From positions 1 to 64,000 of the forward strand of contig JAURAI010000007.1 of assembly GCA_030829545.1 (NCBI GenBank): a stretch of 64,000 nt of DNA, written 5' to 3'. The notes beneath the pieces are model-generated. The model had not been told where the DNA came from and did not search any database. It worked only from the letters and a program-made list of their open reading frames with translations. Made by a program: the position numbers and the translations under genes. This document shows, piece after piece, positions 48,005-57,373 of the stretch. The DNA comes from Candidatus Poseidonia sp. (lineage in GTDB: Archaea > Thermoplasmatota > Poseidoniia > Poseidoniales > Poseidoniaceae). Each line of letters starts with the position of its first letter. The stretch's first letter is position 1.

Positions 48005-49069
48005 ATGACCATGCCAAGCAACGATGTTGACTTTCCAGAAACGCTTTCGTTCCAAGCAGATGAAGGCACCCGTCGCAAGAAAGGAGCACACCGTCCTCAC
48101 TTTGCAACAGTCTTTACCAAGAAGGCAACGAAGGGGAAAACACCCAAACGAGTTCATTTGCTGGTCAATCCCTTTGCTGGGAAGCAAAAAGGTCGAGTAC
48201 GAGCAGGTGAAGCCAGAGAACTTCTCGAACAAGCAGGCGTTGAGGTGGTGGTTGCGTATTCTGCTTACAGTGGCCATTTGACATCAATAGCAGCAGATAT
48301 CGAGGTCAAGCCTGGGGACGTGATCGCTGTGGTAGGTGGAGATGGAAGCCTTTCAGAAGCGATCACTGGTCGACTCGGTAAGGGGGCCAAGGAAAAGGAG
48401 ACGTTCGCTATTATCCCAGCAGGAACTGGAAATTCACAGGCGCACGACCTTGGTATTGGTTCTGTATCCGAGGCGGTTAAGGCCATTTTAGATTCTAAAC
48501 ATCAAGGATTGGACATTGCAGAAGTCAACTTGGTCAAGGGTTTGCCTGGTAGCGAAGATGGAACAATGACGCATTATAGCCACAACCTCGTCACATGGGG
48601 GTTGGGTGTTGATTCAACGATTCAAGCTGAGAAAATGCGGTGGATGGGTCCAGCGAGGTACGATATTGGTATTCTTCTGGCCATCGCAGCCAACAAACGT
48701 CGAACAGCAACCCTCACACTCGACGGTCAATCAATCACCAATGACTTCACCCTCTTTTTGGTTCAAAACAGTCAAACCGGCGGCTCAAAACTTCCTCTCG
48801 CCCCTGGAGCATCATTGGACGATGGATGGATGGATATTGGTATTTTGAAGAAAATGACCCGTCGTGACGTCTTGAAAGCGTTTGGAATGCTGAAGAAAGA
48901 GGGACGTCATGTATTCCACCCGCGTGTTGATTATCACCGTTTCAAGTCGCTGGGAATTGAAACATCGACCCCCACGGCGATCAACATCGACGGAGAAAAC
49001 ATCGGCTCAACTCCCCTTTCAATGAAGGTGCTTTCTCAAGCGGTGAGAATCATTGTACCATCAGAATGA
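48005..49069 (+). CDS. Diacylglycerol/sphingosine kinase-family lipid kinase (DAGK catalytic domain)
   Basis: 'HLLVNPFAGKQKGR', 'VIAVVGGDGSLSEAITG', 'FAIIPAGTGNSQAHDLGI'. Confidence 0.9.
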   Translation: MTMPSNDVDFPETLSFQADEGTRRKKGAHRPHFATVFTKKATKGKTPKRVHLLVNPFAGKQKGRVRAGEARELLEQAGVEVVVAYSAYSGHLTSIAADIEVKPGDVIAVVGGDGSLSEAITGRLGKGAKEKETFAIIPAGTGNSQAHDLGIGSVSEAVKAILDSKHQGLDIAEVNLVKGLPGSEDGTMTHYSHNLVTWGLGVDSTIQAEKMRWMGPARYDIGILLAIAANKRRTATLTLDGQSITNDFTLFLVQNSQTGGSKLPLAPGASLDDGWMDIGILKKMTRRDVLKAFGMLKKEGRHVFHPRVDYHRFKSLGIETSTPTAINIDGENIGSTPLSMKVLSQAVRIIVPSE

Positions 49070-50551
49070 GAAATCTGAGAAATCATCATCTTCCTCATAG
49101 GTTTCACGAGGTGTTGCTTGAGGCTCGGGCTCTGCTTCTGGAGCTTTCTTGACCGCTCTTCGTCGCTTCACAGGAGGTTTGCGCTCCGCCACTTTTTCAG
49201 TCCTTGGCGGTGAACGGGTTGTTGAAGATGGGCTTGAAGATGGGCTTGAAGATACGCTGGGGACGGAGGACACATTTGGTACAGAACTTGGGACAGAGGA
49301 AGTGGCGCTATCCTGAACGTTCATTCGTTCCATTTCTTGAGCAGCGTCAGTGACGACAACCGAGCTCTTTCTCGCAGACGGACCTGATTTACTCTGTGAC
49401 GGAATTCCAGTCCTAGCAAGAACGCTGTCGAGATCAAATCCGCCAAGAGCGTCACCTTTTTCTTTCTTAATTTCTCTCTCAGGCTGTGATTTAGGGGATT
49501 TCTTCTCCTCAGCCTTCCGCTGCTTGTCCATTCGTGCCTGTCGTTCGGTGGGAGATTCCATTCCTGCTTTCTTGGCCGCCTTTGCTTCGGCTTTGACACT
49601 GGCCGCCTTTTTCATTCCTTCATCACCGATCAAGGTCTTCATGGTGTTCTTTGCTGATTTCATGACCAATTGCTTGGAGAAAATGAATGCACCAAACGAA
49701 CCTCCAATCCCAAAGACGAGGAAGAACAAAACAAAGCCAGACCTTCCTAAGAGTGGGATGTCTCCTTGGACCCATTCGTCCTTGGCCTCTCCACTTTGGG
49801 AAACAGTTGCAGTCTCGAGGGTTATCCCAGTTACGAATACATAGGCATCTGCTCGGTTCACATCTCCAATCATCATTGAACAGTCATCACGTGTCCTGTG
49901 CCACGTGCTGTTGTAACCATACGGGACTTGGCCGTCACCAGCAGCATCGACAAGATACCCTTCAATGGAAACTGCTTGATGCCACTCATCAAGGGCCATA
50001 AAACCGTAAAGAATTGATTCTGAGGAGGGGACCAGCCCGAGAACATACCACTCCGTATCTGAATCAGAATCCAGATCATCGATGTCAACGCTACCAGCTC
50101 CAGTCTTCGGGGTCAACGGGACGACCCATTCCTTGACATCAATTCGGGCACCTTCTCCATCGGTAACCTCGGCGGCTTGGTTGAAGCTCATCGATTGTAT
50201 GGCTACAGCAGTTGTCACTCCGAAATCGAGACCTCTGGCTCCCAAGATGGCATTGTGTTCGGTGTAAAATTGACTGGCTGCGAGATATCCAGTAAAGGTC
50301 ACAGGCGCTCCTCCCTGCATCAGTTGATTTCCTTCCTTTGGTGCCTCTGTAGTTGGATCACAGCCCACCGGAATCAAATCAGAGGTTTCGGTTGACGAAC
50401 CCGAAAGGGTGCTCTTCACTTTAGCGGACGTGGTGGTGAAATCTACATCAACACTTGAACTTCCATCTCCCCATGAGGCACTTGATGGTCCAAAGCATCC
50501 TGCAAGCATCATGCTTGCGACGAAACAAAGTGCGAGCAGACCTCTGCGCAT
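49061..50551 (-). CDS. Lipoprotein-like membrane protein with Ser/Pro-rich cytosolic tail
   Basis: 'LCFVASMMLAGCFG' lipobox-like start; TM 'GFVLFFLVFGIGGSFGAFIF'; low-complexity 'SSVPSSVPNVSSVPSVSSSPSSSPSS' tail. Confidence 0.7.
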   Translation of the reverse strand: MRRGLLALCFVASMMLAGCFGPSSASWGDGSSSVDVDFTTTSAKVKSTLSGSSTETSDLIPVGCDPTTEAPKEGNQLMQGGAPVTFTGYLAASQFYTEHNAILGARGLDFGVTTAVAIQSMSFNQAAEVTDGEGARIDVKEWVVPLTPKTGAGSVDIDDLDSDSDTEWYVLGLVPSSESILYGFMALDEWHQAVSIEGYLVDAAGDGQVPYGYNSTWHRTRDDCSMMIGDVNRADAYVFVTGITLETATVSQSGEAKDEWVQGDIPLLGRSGFVLFFLVFGIGGSFGAFIFSKQLVMKSAKNTMKTLIGDEGMKKAASVKAEAKAAKKAGMESPTERQARMDKQRKAEEKKSPKSQPEREIKKEKGDALGGFDLDSVLARTGIPSQSKSGPSARKSSVVVTDAAQEMERMNVQDSATSSVPSSVPNVSSVPSVSSSPSSSPSSTTRSPPRTEKVAERKPPVKRRRAVKKAPEAEPEPQATPRETYEEDDDFSDFSF

Positions 50552-50707: not shown

Positions 50708-52273
50708 TTAGTTGACGGGAGGGGCTTCCATTTTTCCCCCTTTCCCTTCATTCTCATCGTCGCTGGCTTCACGACGGGGTAGAAAAATCACGGCACAGGC
50801 AACGCTCAAGGAGGTTAAAAGAAGCGATAGAGAGGGTGTGTTTTCATCCGAAAAACCTCCCAGGTTTTCGCGGTCCAATAACTCACGCAGGTCTGCTGTA
50901 AAATCATCAACGAGCCAACGGTCTCCAGTCCAAGCGACTGCAGGCTCTCTGTCGGAGTTGAGAATGTAGGTGATGGTTGAGTGGCCCACAGTGTAATCTT
51001 CTATTGTCTCTGAGATGCAGGATAGACGGTCATTTCCATCCCACCCATAGCCAGTATCACACATACAGTGCATCGAATCTCCGCTGCCCATCAGCCAGCC
51101 ATGATCGTTGCATACGCCCGTATCGTTGTGGTTTTGGACTGGCGGAGGGATCTCACTGATATTGATATCAGAAGGTGCCCATGCGATGTGGTTCGGTTCA
51201 AGGACCTCATCCATACCATAATCCGAGCTTTCCCATGTTTCGGCTGTTCCATTCCACAAGTAGAGATTCCACCACCACTCATAGGTTGAGGGTGCGGTTT
51301 CATTGTTCATCGATGACATATAGTGACCCCATGTTGACATTTCGATGGTAGCATTCAATCCAGCAGCATCCAAGCCTCCACGTGTTGCATGATAGGCGTT
51401 AAAGGTACTGATGTTGCTCTGAACGGTCGTTCCATTGGGCCACATGAATGTCATGCTTGCTTCTGCAGTCGCATTGGGGGCAGGGAGTTCACTTCGATTT
51501 GATGTCGATGGCATCCATGCGAGGGACGAGTTTTCAAAACCATCAATGCTGTCAACCCCAACATTTGCCATTTCCCATGCCAATGCGCTTTCGTTCCATG
51601 TATTCAATTCCCAATACCACGACCAGTCAGAGGGGGAATCAACGCCATTGAGGCCGTGAATCATGTGCCCATAGGTCGAGAGTGAGGCATTAACTGAGAT
51701 ATTTGCTTGTTCTGCCATCAGTTGTGTGAGCGTCCATCCTGAGAATTCAACCATGTGATTGGATGCATTACCGCTCGTGTTGACGATGGTTAACGAAGTC
51801 TCAGCGGGTTGGTAGTCCATCACATGAGCCTCGATGACGTTTTGTTGGACGACCAATCCGAAATTATCCCAAACGGGCCTCATTTCTTCAACAGTCCCAG
51901 TGAGATGAGGCCATTCAACTCCGTGCAAGGTCGTGAATTCTGTAAGGCGCTCTGGAGTGTCGTATTCTGGGTCAACGGTAATGGAAATGAACGTGATATC
52001 TTGGCGTTCCCGTTCAGTCAATTCTCCTTCAACACCTTTGAGCAATTGTGTGATTGCGGGGCAAACATCCGGGCAGCGTGTGAACATGAAAGCCACCACT
52101 GTGACCCCCTCGCTGTCAGCATCAGAGTTGTAGACGGCATCATCTTGTGTTGTGAGGCTGAAATCCTCCACAGGTCCACGAGCAAGCTTGCTGCCCTTGT
52201 AGGCAGCAGCCACGGAAGTCATAAGGAGCAATGTACAAACAAAGACAACCAAAAACCGTGTGCGTTGATTCAT
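50708..52273 (-). CDS. SCO1/SenC-family copper chaperone with large internal insertion
   Basis: 'FMFTRCPDVCPAITQLL', 'ISITVDPEYDTPERL', distal 'YTVGHSTITYILNSD'; C-terminal TM. Confidence 0.85.
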   Translation of the reverse strand: MNQRTRFLVVFVCTLLLMTSVAAAYKGSKLARGPVEDFSLTTQDDAVYNSDADSEGVTVVAFMFTRCPDVCPAITQLLKGVEGELTERERQDITFISITVDPEYDTPERLTEFTTLHGVEWPHLTGTVEEMRPVWDNFGLVVQQNVIEAHVMDYQPAETSLTIVNTSGNASNHMVEFSGWTLTQLMAEQANISVNASLSTYGHMIHGLNGVDSPSDWSWYWELNTWNESALAWEMANVGVDSIDGFENSSLAWMPSTSNRSELPAPNATAEASMTFMWPNGTTVQSNISTFNAYHATRGGLDAAGLNATIEMSTWGHYMSSMNNETAPSTYEWWWNLYLWNGTAETWESSDYGMDEVLEPNHIAWAPSDINISEIPPPVQNHNDTGVCNDHGWLMGSGDSMHCMCDTGYGWDGNDRLSCISETIEDYTVGHSTITYILNSDREPAVAWTGDRWLVDDFTADLRELLDRENLGGFSDENTPSLSLLLTSLSVACAVIFLPRREASDDENEGKGGKMEAPPVN

Positions 52274-52284
52274 ACCACGTAGCC

Positions 52285-52680
52285 TCAGCGTTCTACGGCA
52301 AAATCCCAGTTAGGAGTACACCAGTCAGGTAGATTTTGCACTGCACCGGGGTTTGACAGTCCAATGCCCCAAAGCATGAGCAATACAAAGAGGACGGGGA
52401 ACAGGGCCGTTCGGGTGTAGATACGAGGGTCGCCCTTCAAGTGCATGAAATAGGCTGCAATACCGTAGCCTTTGACAATACCAACGCCAATGAGGATGGC
52501 CCAAACAGCGTAGAGTGTGATCTCGATGTTGGTACCAGGTATGGTCTCGAAGAAAACAGCAGCGACCTCAAACAGTGTGAACACCATCAAGATGATGAAG
52601 TTCCAAAAGTAAATGTCGTAGTTCCCAGGTAGTTTTTCAACAATTGATTCAAAGATTCCGGTTGTTTCGTGTTCTCCCAT
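52285..52680 (-). CDS. Cytochrome c oxidase subunit IV-like membrane protein
   Basis: Three hydrophobic helices with 'VKGYGIAAYFMHLKGDPR'; adjacent to subunit III. Confidence 0.82.
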   Translation of the reverse strand: MGEHETTGIFESIVEKLPGNYDIYFWNFIILMVFTLFEVAAVFFETIPGTNIEITLYAVWAILIGVGIVKGYGIAAYFMHLKGDPRIYTRTALFPVLFVLLMLWGIGLSNPGAVQNLPDWCTPNWDFAVER

Positions 52681-52689
52681 GTTTTCACC

Positions 52690-54036
52690 TCAATACAGAT
52701 AGAAGGCTGGGAAGATAACAACCCAAGCCAAGTCAACAAAGTGCCAGTACAGGCCAAAGTATTCAATGCCTTGACCGTTCTTTTCATCGTAGCCAACGGT
52801 GTCAGCCTTGAAAATCAGGTAAAGCATCACGAGCAGCCCAATGAAGACGTGAAGTCCGTGCGCACCCGTGGAAATGTAGAAGATAGAACCAGCTTGTGTA
52901 CCAATGGTGAATCCTTCTGCAACCAAATGGCTCCATTCAATCAACTTGAGGACGATAAACATCGAACCGAGCAGGAAGGTAGCAATGAGGTAGTTTCGAA
53001 CAGCCGCTTTCTGGGTGGGCATGATCTTACCCATGAAACCAGTCGGAGCAGTCCAATCCTTGGCTTTGGCAGTCTTGAGAGCCAAGACGATGGTGTAGGA
53101 TGAGATGATAAGAGCAAAGGTGTTGATAGCACCAGGCAAGAGCGTCATGAAGTCTCCTTGTCCACCCAAACCATCGAGTGTACCTCCGTTCGGGCGAAGG
53201 AAATCAGATGCTGTCAACATGTTAACTTCCTGACAATTTCCAGCCTGGACTTGCCAGTCCGTACACCATTCGGTTCGCATACGGAGGTAGGACGAAAAGA
53301 AGGTGGCGAACACCATCACTTCAGACATGATGAATACCCACAATCCAGCCTTGCGGATGTGTTGGCCTTCAAAGGGAGCTGAAGTCGCGATTTGCTCACC
53401 ATTTCCAATGAACGGAAGGTCTTCTCTCCACCAGTTTGCCACACCGGCTGTTACAATGACGAGGCCGAGCATGCTGACTCCAAGGTCTCCAAGAGCGAAA
53501 TCTGTACCAGACAGCATGTTGCCCAATACGCCCTGGAACGATGGGAAGCCCATGAGGAAGAGCATGATACCGAGTGCGAAGATGATCGGAGATCCTGACC
53601 CGTGGTGTTCGTGGTCGTCTCCACCATATCCGTGATTGTCATGAGCATCGTCTCCATTGGGTGCGATTGAATTGAGGAATCCACCCAATCCGATGAATGC
53701 AGCGTAAGTAATACACATCAGGAGGATGGTGATTCCTGCTGTTCTCCATGTCAGGTAGGAGAGGTGAGCCTCCACTTCGTGGTGATGAGCGGCTTCTTTC
53801 TCTGCTTTGAGCGTTGCAATTTCGTCTGCACTGGCGTTTGTAGCCTTTGCATCCTCGTAGGCATACTTTGCTTCCTCATATTCACTCATCGCAATTTCGT
53901 AATCGTGATGCTTGAGGTTGGCAGCGCCTACGCCCATTGTGGCAAAGGCAAGAATACCGATGGCGAGGAAAACGCCTCCAATCAAGACGGCGCGCATCCA
54001 GATGCTGTTTTCGACATGGGCCTCTCCTCCGCTCAT
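52690..54036 (-). CDS. Cytochrome c oxidase subunit III
   Basis: 'GLWVFIMSEVMVFATFFSSYLRMR', 'FYISTGAHGLHVFIGLLVMLY', 'YWHFVDLAWVVIFPAFYLY'. Confidence 0.93.
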   Translation of the reverse strand: MSGGEAHVENSIWMRAVLIGGVFLAIGILAFATMGVGAANLKHHDYEIAMSEYEEAKYAYEDAKATNASADEIATLKAEKEAAHHHEVEAHLSYLTWRTAGITILLMCITYAAFIGLGGFLNSIAPNGDDAHDNHGYGGDDHEHHGSGSPIIFALGIMLFLMGFPSFQGVLGNMLSGTDFALGDLGVSMLGLVIVTAGVANWWREDLPFIGNGEQIATSAPFEGQHIRKAGLWVFIMSEVMVFATFFSSYLRMRTEWCTDWQVQAGNCQEVNMLTASDFLRPNGGTLDGLGGQGDFMTLLPGAINTFALIISSYTIVLALKTAKAKDWTAPTGFMGKIMPTQKAAVRNYLIATFLLGSMFIVLKLIEWSHLVAEGFTIGTQAGSIFYISTGAHGLHVFIGLLVMLYLIFKADTVGYDEKNGQGIEYFGLYWHFVDLAWVVIFPAFYLY

Positions 54037-56366
54037 TCTTCTCCCTCCAGTTGACCTACGATCACCGCTTTCGGTTCGGCTTTCAGGTATTTATCGACAA
54101 GCGATTCAGATTTCTCAGCATGGTGTCCGTAGAGTTCGTTCATATCGCCCTGCGTTGGGATGTCGTGGAACGAAGGTGTTGGAGGCGGAGAGGTTGTGGA
54201 CCATTCCAATGACCAGCCACCCCAAGGGTCGTTATCAGCAGGTTCGCCGCGTCGGGCCGAGTAAATGATGTTCCATACCAAGAGGAGTTGGCTGATTCCG
54301 AAGATGAAAGCAAAGGTGGAGACTGCCATGTTGTATTCTGCAAAACCAGATTCGATGGTATAGGTATGTGTCCGTCGAGGCATGCCCATGATACCGAGGG
54401 CATGCATGGGCCAAAATGCTGCATTGTAGGAGGCAAAGCCGATGAGGAAATGCCACAGTCCAAGCGTCTCGTTGAGTTTACGTCCGGTTGCCTTTGGATA
54501 CCAGTAGTACACTGCAGAGAACAAAGCGAAGACAGTTCCGCCAATGAATACATAGTGGAAGTGGGCCACAACGAAGTAGGAATCATGGAAGTGAATGTCA
54601 AGCCCCGCAACGGGGAAGAACATACCTGAAATACCACCGAGGGTGAAGGTAACGAGGAAACCGAGTGACCAAAGCGTATGGGTCTTCATGACCAATGAGC
54701 CGCCCCATAGGGTTGCTAGCCAGTTGAAGATCTTGGCACCCGTCGGAATAGCGACGAGCATGGTCATCACCATGAAGGCTGCTCGCCAGAACGGGTCCAT
54801 ACCCGATGTGAGCATGTGGTGCCCCCATACGACGAAGCCGACAACACCGATACCAGCCATGGCGAGAACCATTGACTTGTATCCAAAGATGGAGCGTCGG
54901 GCTGAGGTTGCCAGTACCTCCGATACGATACCGAAAGCAGGAACGATGACCACGTAGACTTCTGGATGGCCAAAGAACCAGAACAGGTGCTGGAACAAGA
55001 GCGGGTCGCCACCGGCGACGAAGAATTGCGTTCCAATCGTGTGGTCAAAGAGCAAGAAGGCCACGCCGATGATGAGAGCAGGCAGGGACATGAAGAGCAT
55101 GAACACGCTGATGAATACAGACCAAGAGAAGAGGGGCATCTTCATCCAGGTGACGCCTGGTGCACGCATGGTGAACACGGTGGTGATGAAATTCACGCCA
55201 CCCAGTGTCGATGAAGCACCCAGCATGAGCATGCCCGAAATGAAGGCAGTCGTTCCTGGGTTTGAACCGTAATCTGCAAGCGTTGAACCGAGATTGGCTT
55301 CGGTCAGCGATGAATAGGGCGGGTACATGACCCAGGTGATATCAGCGCCTTCACCGGACCAAATGCCCGTGAAGATGAGAGGTGCAGAGAACACGAGAAG
55401 CCAAAGACCCATGGCATTGATTCGAGGGAAGGCCAGGTCTTTAGCACCGATTTGCAACGGCAAGACGTAATTCATGAAACCAGCGATCATCGGCATGGCT
55501 GCAAGGAAAATCATGGTCGTACCGTGAAGGGTGAAGAATGAATTGTATTCGTCATAGGTGAGGAAATCGTTCTCAGGAAGTGATAGCTGAATGCGGAATA
55601 ACAATGCGAGCAATCCACCGACGAGGAAGAAGAAGAATCCGAACAGGAAGTACATGATTCCGACTTCTTTGTGGTCGGTTGTAGTCAACCAAGGCTTGAG
55701 GAAGCCCCAGAAACGCTCCATGGTAAAGGTGTCAGGTGAATTCCGGTAAAAGACCCACAAGACGCCAACAAAGATGAGTCCTGCCGCTAGTCCAATGGAA
55801 GTGAGGAAGATAATGAGTGCACTCGCGCTCGGGGCGGTAACACCTGCATTGATACCGGAGATAGCAAGATTGGCTTGATTCCACATGTCACCGCCAGAAC
55901 CTGCTCCACCATTGACTGCGTTTCCATAAACGGTCATTTCCACGTTGAGGTCGTCAGCAGCGGGTGCTGTCCATTCAAAGGTCCACGAGCGAACGGTATT
56001 TGCTTCGTCTGTGTGAGTGAGTCCTCCGTCCATGGTTTGACTGAGAGTTTCGGGGACGGCAGTGACGCTTCCGTGGGAAACGAGGATTCTGAAACCACCT
56101 GCACGGCCGTTCCATTCGTCGCCACCATCGTCGTAAATCTCCATCACATCGTTCACAACGGTAACGGTGAAGGTGTAAGTTTCGCTTGCGTTGTAGGTAT
56201 CGGGTAAACCAACGACAACGACGCTTGTGTCAGCGGATGCACCGCCGTGGCATGAACAACCTTGGTCTCCTGCGGAGCCGATTCCGCCGGGGGCTGCAGT
56301 GAATTGAGGTGCTGCCATCAAAGCAACGAGAACGACACCGAGCAGTGCAATGGCGCGAGTTCGCAT
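54033..56366 (-). CDS. Cytochrome c oxidase subunit I with secreted N-terminal domain fusion
   Basis: 'LTTTDHKEVGIMYFLFG', 'FWFFGHPEVYVVIVPAFG', 'HFHDSYFVVAHFHYVF'; about 175 aa extra N-terminal domain with signal peptide and 'GCSCHGG'. Confidence 0.95.
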   Translation of the reverse strand: MRTRAIALLGVVLVALMAAPQFTAAPGGIGSAGDQGCSCHGGASADTSVVVVGLPDTYNASETYTFTVTVVNDVMEIYDDGGDEWNGRAGGFRILVSHGSVTAVPETLSQTMDGGLTHTDEANTVRSWTFEWTAPAADDLNVEMTVYGNAVNGGAGSGGDMWNQANLAISGINAGVTAPSASALIIFLTSIGLAAGLIFVGVLWVFYRNSPDTFTMERFWGFLKPWLTTTDHKEVGIMYFLFGFFFFLVGGLLALLFRIQLSLPENDFLTYDEYNSFFTLHGTTMIFLAAMPMIAGFMNYVLPLQIGAKDLAFPRINAMGLWLLVFSAPLIFTGIWSGEGADITWVMYPPYSSLTEANLGSTLADYGSNPGTTAFISGMLMLGASSTLGGVNFITTVFTMRAPGVTWMKMPLFSWSVFISVFMLFMSLPALIIGVAFLLFDHTIGTQFFVAGGDPLLFQHLFWFFGHPEVYVVIVPAFGIVSEVLATSARRSIFGYKSMVLAMAGIGVVGFVVWGHHMLTSGMDPFWRAAFMVMTMLVAIPTGAKIFNWLATLWGGSLVMKTHTLWSLGFLVTFTLGGISGMFFPVAGLDIHFHDSYFVVAHFHYVFIGGTVFALFSAVYYWYPKATGRKLNETLGLWHFLIGFASYNAAFWPMHALGIMGMPRRTHTYTIESGFAEYNMAVSTFAFIFGISQLLLVWNIIYSARRGEPADNDPWGGWSLEWSTTSPPPTPSFHDIPTQGDMNELYGHHAEKSESLVDKYLKAEPKAVIVGQLEGEE

Positions 56367-57373
56367 CAGTAATCGCCTCCACTGCTTTCGCCGTCAGATG
56401 TTTTCTTCACGCCTGTATCAATCGAACAATCTGTTCCTTCTGCAGCGACGATTTTGACTTGGCCGTACATCATGGAGTGTTGGTTGCCACAGTATTCAGC
56501 ACAACGAATTGGGAATGTTCCGGGGTCATCGGCCATGATGGTCATGTAGGTGCCTCCTTCGAGACCAGGCACCAAATCTTCTTTGACGCCCCATTCTGGA
56601 AGCCAGAAGGAATGTTGGACGCCGACATAATTTGGGTTGGAGTCGTCAGAAGGTTTGGAGTGCATCTCAAAGACAACATCTTCATCACACGGCAAAATCA
56701 TGTCTTCGCTCAGTGCTGAGGAGAAGATGTGGCCTTCGGGAATGTGCATCCAGGTGTGAAGAACTGCGCCTTCAGCGTCGATGACTTCTACAACGGCCAG
56801 TTCTCGAGTTTGGATGACAACCTCTTCGGTGCCCATCCCGGTCAATTGGTCAAGGGCAACGAATCCATCTTTGCCGGCGTTATCGTAGGTGGCATTGACT
56901 GCTCCGCTGGACCCAGCGTTGATGACCAGTGTTGTGCCTGACCAGTTGACATCAATGCCGGTCATGGACGGATCGTCTTCCCAAGTGAGCGAGTCTGCGT
57001 ATTCGAATTCCCAGAACCACTGCTTGCCGTAAATTTTCATGTCATGAGCTTCGGCTTCGTCAGGGATGACCCAGACAGCAGTGTTTGAGGAGAGTGCAAG
57101 GACAAGCAGCCAGGCAATAATAATGGTTGGAAGGACATAAAACAATGTTTCCACCGCAGTATTGTGGCGGTCAACTGGAAATGAACCCACTTCAATATGG
57201 TCAATGTGCGTAGTATCCGGCTCAACACCATCACGGTATCGCAAGATCGCCAAAAAGAGCCAACCGAAGGTGAAAATACCTACGATAATGGACCAGAACA
57301 TGAATTTATCATAGAGAACAGTGAATACCGTATCTTCAGCGACCACACAACCACCCTGTCTTATGGGCAACAT
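56366..57373 (-). CDS. Cytochrome c oxidase subunit II (CuA)
   Basis: 'YGKQWFWEFEYADSLTW', 'FPIRCAEYCGNQHSMMYGQVKIV' CuA motif. Start may be internal. Confidence 0.93.
   Translation of the reverse strand: MLPIRQGGCVVAEDTVFTVLYDKFMFWSIIVGIFTFGWLFLAILRYRDGVEPDTTHIDHIEVGSFPVDRHNTAVETLFYVLPTIIIAWLLVLALSSNTAVWVIPDEAEAHDMKIYGKQWFWEFEYADSLTWEDDPSMTGIDVNWSGTTLVINAGSSGAVNATYDNAGKDGFVALDQLTGMGTEEVVIQTRELAVVEVIDAEGAVLHTWMHIPEGHIFSSALSEDMILPCDEDVVFEMHSKPSDDSNPNYVGVQHSFWLPEWGVKEDLVPGLEGGTYMTIMADDPGTFPIRCAEYCGNQHSMMYGQVKIVAAEGTDCSIDTGVKKTSDGESSGGDY

Follow-up and report, generated by a model that had tools for sequence, protein, structure and literature searches.

The SCO-A gene and its oxidase locus

On the minus strand of the window, by which we mean the whole stretch of 64,000 nucleotides of Candidatus Poseidonia sp. 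DNA that was analyzed, the gene at 50708-52273, here termed SCO-A, is a single open frame with an ATG start that encodes 521 amino acids, at the coordinates given by the first-pass annotation. It directly follows coxII, coxI, coxIII, and coxIV (52285-57373, minus strand), which encode a putative client oxidase already recognized in that annotation as a neighbor. As coxII, coxI, coxIII, coxIV, and SCO-A are separated by intergenic gaps of about ten bases or show small overlaps, SCO-A is probably the final gene of a coxII-I-III-IV operon. The CuA site of CoxII is a known client of SCO proteins, and the CuA motif of the CoxII encoded here is intact (H-X36-CAEYC-X3-H-X2-M).

Further features of the locus were seen in the neighboring gene products. 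The spacing in the window CoxII (56366-57373, minus strand) is H-X36-CXEXC, and X34 has been quoted for bacteria (PMC9145763). CoxI (54033-56366, minus strand) has an N-terminal choice-of-anchor V domain (residues 17-167, NF041895, E 5.8e-25) with a GCSCHGG motif; an extracellular domain fused to subunit I in this way is unusual. CoxIII (52690-54036, minus strand) has 448 residues with long non-conserved N-terminal parts, and its best Pfam COX3 match spans residues 341-447 only. A syntenic gene for a membrane protein or lipoprotein at 49061-50551 (minus strand), the product of which is a possible partner of SCO-A, is kept beside SCO-A in the window's own family (f1) and in genus g17 of the sister family (f2).

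The assignment to the SCO family, originally based on a CPDVC motif and a distal His, is well founded, as Pfam SCO1-SenC matched residues 36-157 with an E-value of 5.8e-25 (88.2 bits, cut-off 22.8). The nearest solved relatives are the SCO proteins of Thermus, Bacillus, and human, with human SCO1 also aligning at residues 424-443, a second stretch that is not significant by itself. The N-terminal part of the SCO core, delimited by Pfam and alignment, comprises residues 27-152 (51818-52195, minus strand) and includes the CPDVC copper/thiol motif (residues 67-71; 52061-52075, minus strand). The C-terminal part (residues 425-470; 50864-51001, minus strand) matches the C-termini of ordinary SCO proteins and includes the predicted copper-ligand His431 in the sequence YTVGHSTITY (50981-50983, minus strand). 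When SCO-A is aligned with ordinary SCO proteins, no variation is seen at C67, C71, or H431, and all SCO-A rows listed have the CxxxC motif and the distal His. The distance between these Cys and His residues is about 360 residues in the window SCO-A versus roughly 85-135 in insert-free SCO proteins, in agreement with the proposed insertion. The insertion of 270 residues sits in the loop preceding the copper-ligand His, the "Sco loop" (PMC6696091).

Both termini carry potential membrane anchors, as read from the sequence: an N-terminal signal peptide or anchor (residues 1-24; 52202-52273, minus strand), which is helical at residues 2-18 in the structural model, and a C-terminal hydrophobic helix (residues 482-497; 50783-50830, minus strand), also helical in the model and probably a membrane anchor. 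The anchor type varies: a signal peptide plus a C-terminal hydrophobic helix was read from the sequences of the window's genus, and an N-terminal lipobox from those of f2, the third family (f3), and genera g6 and g10 (L129, L130, L082, L085).

The AlphaFold model, computed from a 14-row alignment that contained the window protein, L036, L037, and ordinary SCO proteins and was thin for the insert, reached pLDDT values of 74-93 at residues 31-140 and 75-87 in blocks of residues 431-470, but mostly below 50 in the insert, with a pTM of 0.41. A Foldseek search with this model returned SCO proteins first (best 2k6v, E 3.4e-9), and these matches comprised 106 to 137 aligned columns, which do not alone show that the C-terminal part packs on the N-terminal part. 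As the model gives no inter-part confidence and closure is thus outside its reach, and as the copper ligands are so far apart, one could argue that the halves have ceased to make up a copper-binding SCO, with a broken thioredoxin fold now serving as the base of a surface receptor. We regard this as highly improbable, since the CxxxC and the His are conserved in the SCO-A rows surveyed, and the C-terminal part is well predicted and conserved with ordinary SCO proteins. Sequence conservation rather favors the view that the N- and C-terminal parts would form one closed SCO fold.

Distribution and copy number of the insert

The inserted architecture is also present in relatives of the window gene. 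Other assemblies contain full-length orthologs with 85% and 83% identity, independent assemblies from across the genus and the family yield full-length relatives, and dozens of independent Poseidoniales genomes contain the inserted SCO form, mostly at the same syntenic place. It had been considered that orthologs without the insert would point to an assembly chimera. Such insertless orthologs do exist, but the inserted form recurs in so many independent assemblies that an assembly or annotation chimera is excluded.

Of the own-family members that were read, most keep the gene order coxII-I-III-IV-SCO-p49061, as does one sister-family genus. In the other sister-family genera and in the third family, SCO-A keeps its insert away from cox genes, none of which were found beside SCO-A in the 18 kb around the gene, and several of these SCO-A genes without cox neighbors adjoin an ordinary SCO paralog. 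No relatives were found in viral contigs.

When the inserted units were counted with a profile built from 34 of them, a series from zero to three became apparent. Genus g6, in which SCO-A occupies the same syntenic and cox-linked place, has no unit; most of the sister family, the third family, and some genera of the own family have one; most of the own family has two; and part of genus g4 has three. By eye, CoxII length showed no pattern with unit number. In a tree of the SCO core, the SCO-A genes were set apart from ordinary paralogs with 98/98 support. The insertless g6 genes had no firm position in this tree, and therefore loss and ancestral absence of the insert are both possible. Both units and the Cys-containing module that follows them are under purifying selection in close pairs, with dN/dS values of about 0.03-0.16 that are similar to those of the core (codon comparison with two close relatives).

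DUF4430-like units and the Cys/Met/His module

The two units of the window protein, unit 1 at residues 157-256 (51506-51805, minus strand; unit profile E 1.4e-35) and unit 2 at residues 268-368 (51170-51472, minus strand; E 3.5e-33), are homologous from end to end (conditional E 5e-13 in a phmmer search of the SCO-A protein with one of the units). The duplication suggested by the first-pass annotation is thus real, and the resemblance to DUF4430 that it had pointed out is correct, albeit remote. Pfam DUF4430 did not directly match a unit in the window's own genome, and the model matched 5 of the 34 units only weakly (best E 0.014), not reaching the cut-off. The unit profile found other Thermoplasmatota proteins, however, and among these L133, L145, and L146 pass the Pfam DUF4430 cut-off. 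A profile-profile comparison of the units with a DUF4430 alignment by hhalign gave a probability of 99.5 and an E-value of 1.8e-22, a score that is somewhat favored by the inclusion of L133, L145, and L146 in the target alignment, which was built from matches of the same unit profile. Judged by these profiles, the units are divergent DUF4430/transcobalamin-like domains that are related via intermediates. Their fold is probably a beta-grasp: the predicted order in unit 2 (two strands, helix, hairpin, two strands; pLDDT 64) agrees at modest confidence with the description of the beta-grasp superfamily. Foldseek with the unit model gave no match at E<=0.001 and returned chiefly antibody-fold noise.

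Metal ligands inside the units were considered as well, but this idea was dropped: the units contain no invariant His, Met, or Cys, and we therefore propose no metal role for them. The same type of unit is also inserted in ZnuA-like proteins and fused to cupredoxin (blue-copper) proteins, and it therefore recurs in metal-handling surface proteins of the class Poseidoniia. Other Thermoplasmatota have the same domain in beta-propeller proteins and as stand-alone proteins, and the copy number of zero to three demonstrates tolerance. Both would be expected if the units were generic extracellular domains that have spread through Poseidoniia proteins and were accommodated in a permissive loop with no specific copper role. 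This is quite unlikely in our opinion, as the units have been retained under purifying selection across three families of the class, and as the module that follows them is exclusive to SCO-A.

Some of these other proteins have peculiarities of their own. In the ZnuA-like zinc-binding lipoproteins at L142:1069-4530, L144:411-2492, and L092:4574-7249, the unit is inserted beside very long His-rich runs, and the L142 protein also has EF-hands. The proteins at L139:931-2496 and L141:242-2080 combine a plastocyanin-like domain with one or two DUF4430-like units; they are anchored at the C-terminus and carry the motif GCMDSTATNFNxxATxDDxSCTY in repeats. The genus from which L139 comes is the one with the insertless SCO.

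The module, which we term HCMC module, covers residues 388-419 (51017-51112, minus strand; profile E 8.7e-19) with the sequence CNDHGWLMGSGDSMHCMCDTGYGWDGNDRLSC and the pattern C...MG...HCMC...C, and its last Cys lies 12 residues ahead of His431. The residues C3, M10, G11, H17, C18, M19, C20, and C34 are invariant among 25 diverse rows. When 243 genomes of the phylum were searched with its profile, the module was detected in 48 Poseidoniia genomes from three families, in one copy each and in open reading frames of SCO-A length. Within this sample it is confined to SCO-A genes, apart from a single weak match of 19 residues.

The description of this stretch as EGF-like was justified insofar as EGF-clan models do match, although weakly: the best scores for the window module were E 0.019 (ADGRF3_N) and E 0.067 (EGF), both below the cut-offs, and the best of any module member was E 0.002. 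With its four Cys residues, the module lacks the six-Cys EGF pattern, and no match exceeded the Pfam cut-off. The conserved Cys residues, together with the weak EGF-clan scores, can be read as purely structural disulfides. An EGF-like spacer would be compatible with an insert that serves as a docking arm, recognizing the extracellular parts of CoxII or CoxI without any role in metal handling, and the position of SCO-A in the operon with coxII-I-III-IV as well as the suitability of aromatic-rich repeated domains for protein or ligand binding are in line with this explanation. On the other hand, the insert is kept in f2 and f3 genomes in which no cox genes were found in the 18 kb around SCO-A, the cox-linked g6 ortholog has no insert, and the invariant Met and His of the module are not part of the Cys/Gly pattern of EGF folds. 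We therefore consider a docking arm of this kind, with no role in metal handling, possible but unlikely. A metal-handling role of the Cys/Met/His module would fit its conservation at least as well as oxidase docking.

The distribution of His-rich stretches in the Sco loop is relevant in this respect. With a loop boundary that was adjusted after a first look, such a stretch was present in 28 of 31 SCO-A genes without the module, versus 3 of 59 with it. The first boundary, which started later, gave 14 of 34 versus 3 of 56, with a p-value of 4e-5 that treats related genes as independent and a search pattern that missed some module variants. In a tree-based pairs test, supported branches supplied just three pairs; most of these agreed with the expectation, and with so few independent events the sign test was not significant. 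This complementarity hints that the module and the His-rich run may do the same job, most simply the binding of Cu(I) next to His431.

A proposed CuA chaperone and its relation to known systems

We propose that SCO-A is a SCO copper chaperone or thiol reductase that serves the CuA site of the oxidase whose genes lie immediately upstream. The Sco loop before the copper-ligand His has been expanded by a modular arm, consisting of one to three DUF4430-like domains followed by the HCMC module. The module, or the His/Met-rich run that takes its place in other lineages, would hold Cu(I) near the CxxxC/His site and feed that site, whereas the DUF4430-like domains would project outward as arms and bind either a partner or a soluble ligand. 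For a CuA chaperone of this kind, with an accessory Cu(I) site in the Sco loop and ligand- or partner-binding arms, we see an even chance. A bolder version would be a self-contained CuA metallochaperone, whose own second Cu(I) site (HCMC, replaceable by His/Met-rich runs) does the job of PCuAC or Cox17 within one chain and whose transcobalamin-like arms either dock the oxidase or take up ligands that carry copper from the surrounding seawater. This version is speculative and, in our estimate, rather improbable.

In the plankton of the surface ocean, the uncultured Poseidoniales rank among the most abundant archaea, and the findings bear on the question of how copper is loaded into cytochrome oxidase in archaea without PCuAC. 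A SCO protein that occurs class-wide, with the number of inserted domains ranging from zero to three and with a Cys/Met/His module that is near-invariant and exclusive to it, represents a natural series for the control of copper transfer by the Sco loop. SCO and DUF4430 are each already known. A literature search, which left subscription papers and annotated protein databases aside, found no paper on a combination of SLBB and Sco1, and judging by titles and abstracts, none of the six papers found to name DUF4430 deals with SCO.

With the SCO1/SenC family (PF02630), SCO-A has in common the CxxxC motif, the distal His, the predicted thioredoxin-like core, and the linkage to cytochrome c oxidase genes, but it differs in that the loop ahead of the His is longer by 270 residues and by its C-terminal hydrophobic anchor, as SCO1/SenC proteins are anchored only N-terminally. 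We take DUF4430 (PF14478) to correspond to the transcobalamin-like beta-grasp superfamily. The units resemble these domains in sequence pattern, in their profile match to members above the cut-off, and in a predicted succession of strands and helix in which a hairpin follows the helix, whereas they themselves remain below the Pfam cut-off and occur in tandem inside another fold. The transcobalamin-like SLBB beta-grasp superfamily binds small soluble ligands (PMC1796856). The HCMC module is similar to EGF-like modules in its CxC..GY pattern and its weak Pfam scores but differs by having only four Cys and the invariant Met and His.

PCuAC is the usual partner of SCO in bacteria, and mitochondria use Cox17. 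The PCuAC family (PF04314) was absent from all 60 Poseidoniales genomes searched (60/60), but it was not detected either in Haloferax, a control with an ordinary SCO. The absence of PCuAC is therefore background and not evidence, and we dropped it as a specific correlate of SCO-A. The relation to PCuAC is one of functional analogy only, in that the Met/His Cu(I) site of PCuAC acts alongside SCO. SCO-A points to a pathway in which a single protein could take the place of the two used by bacteria.
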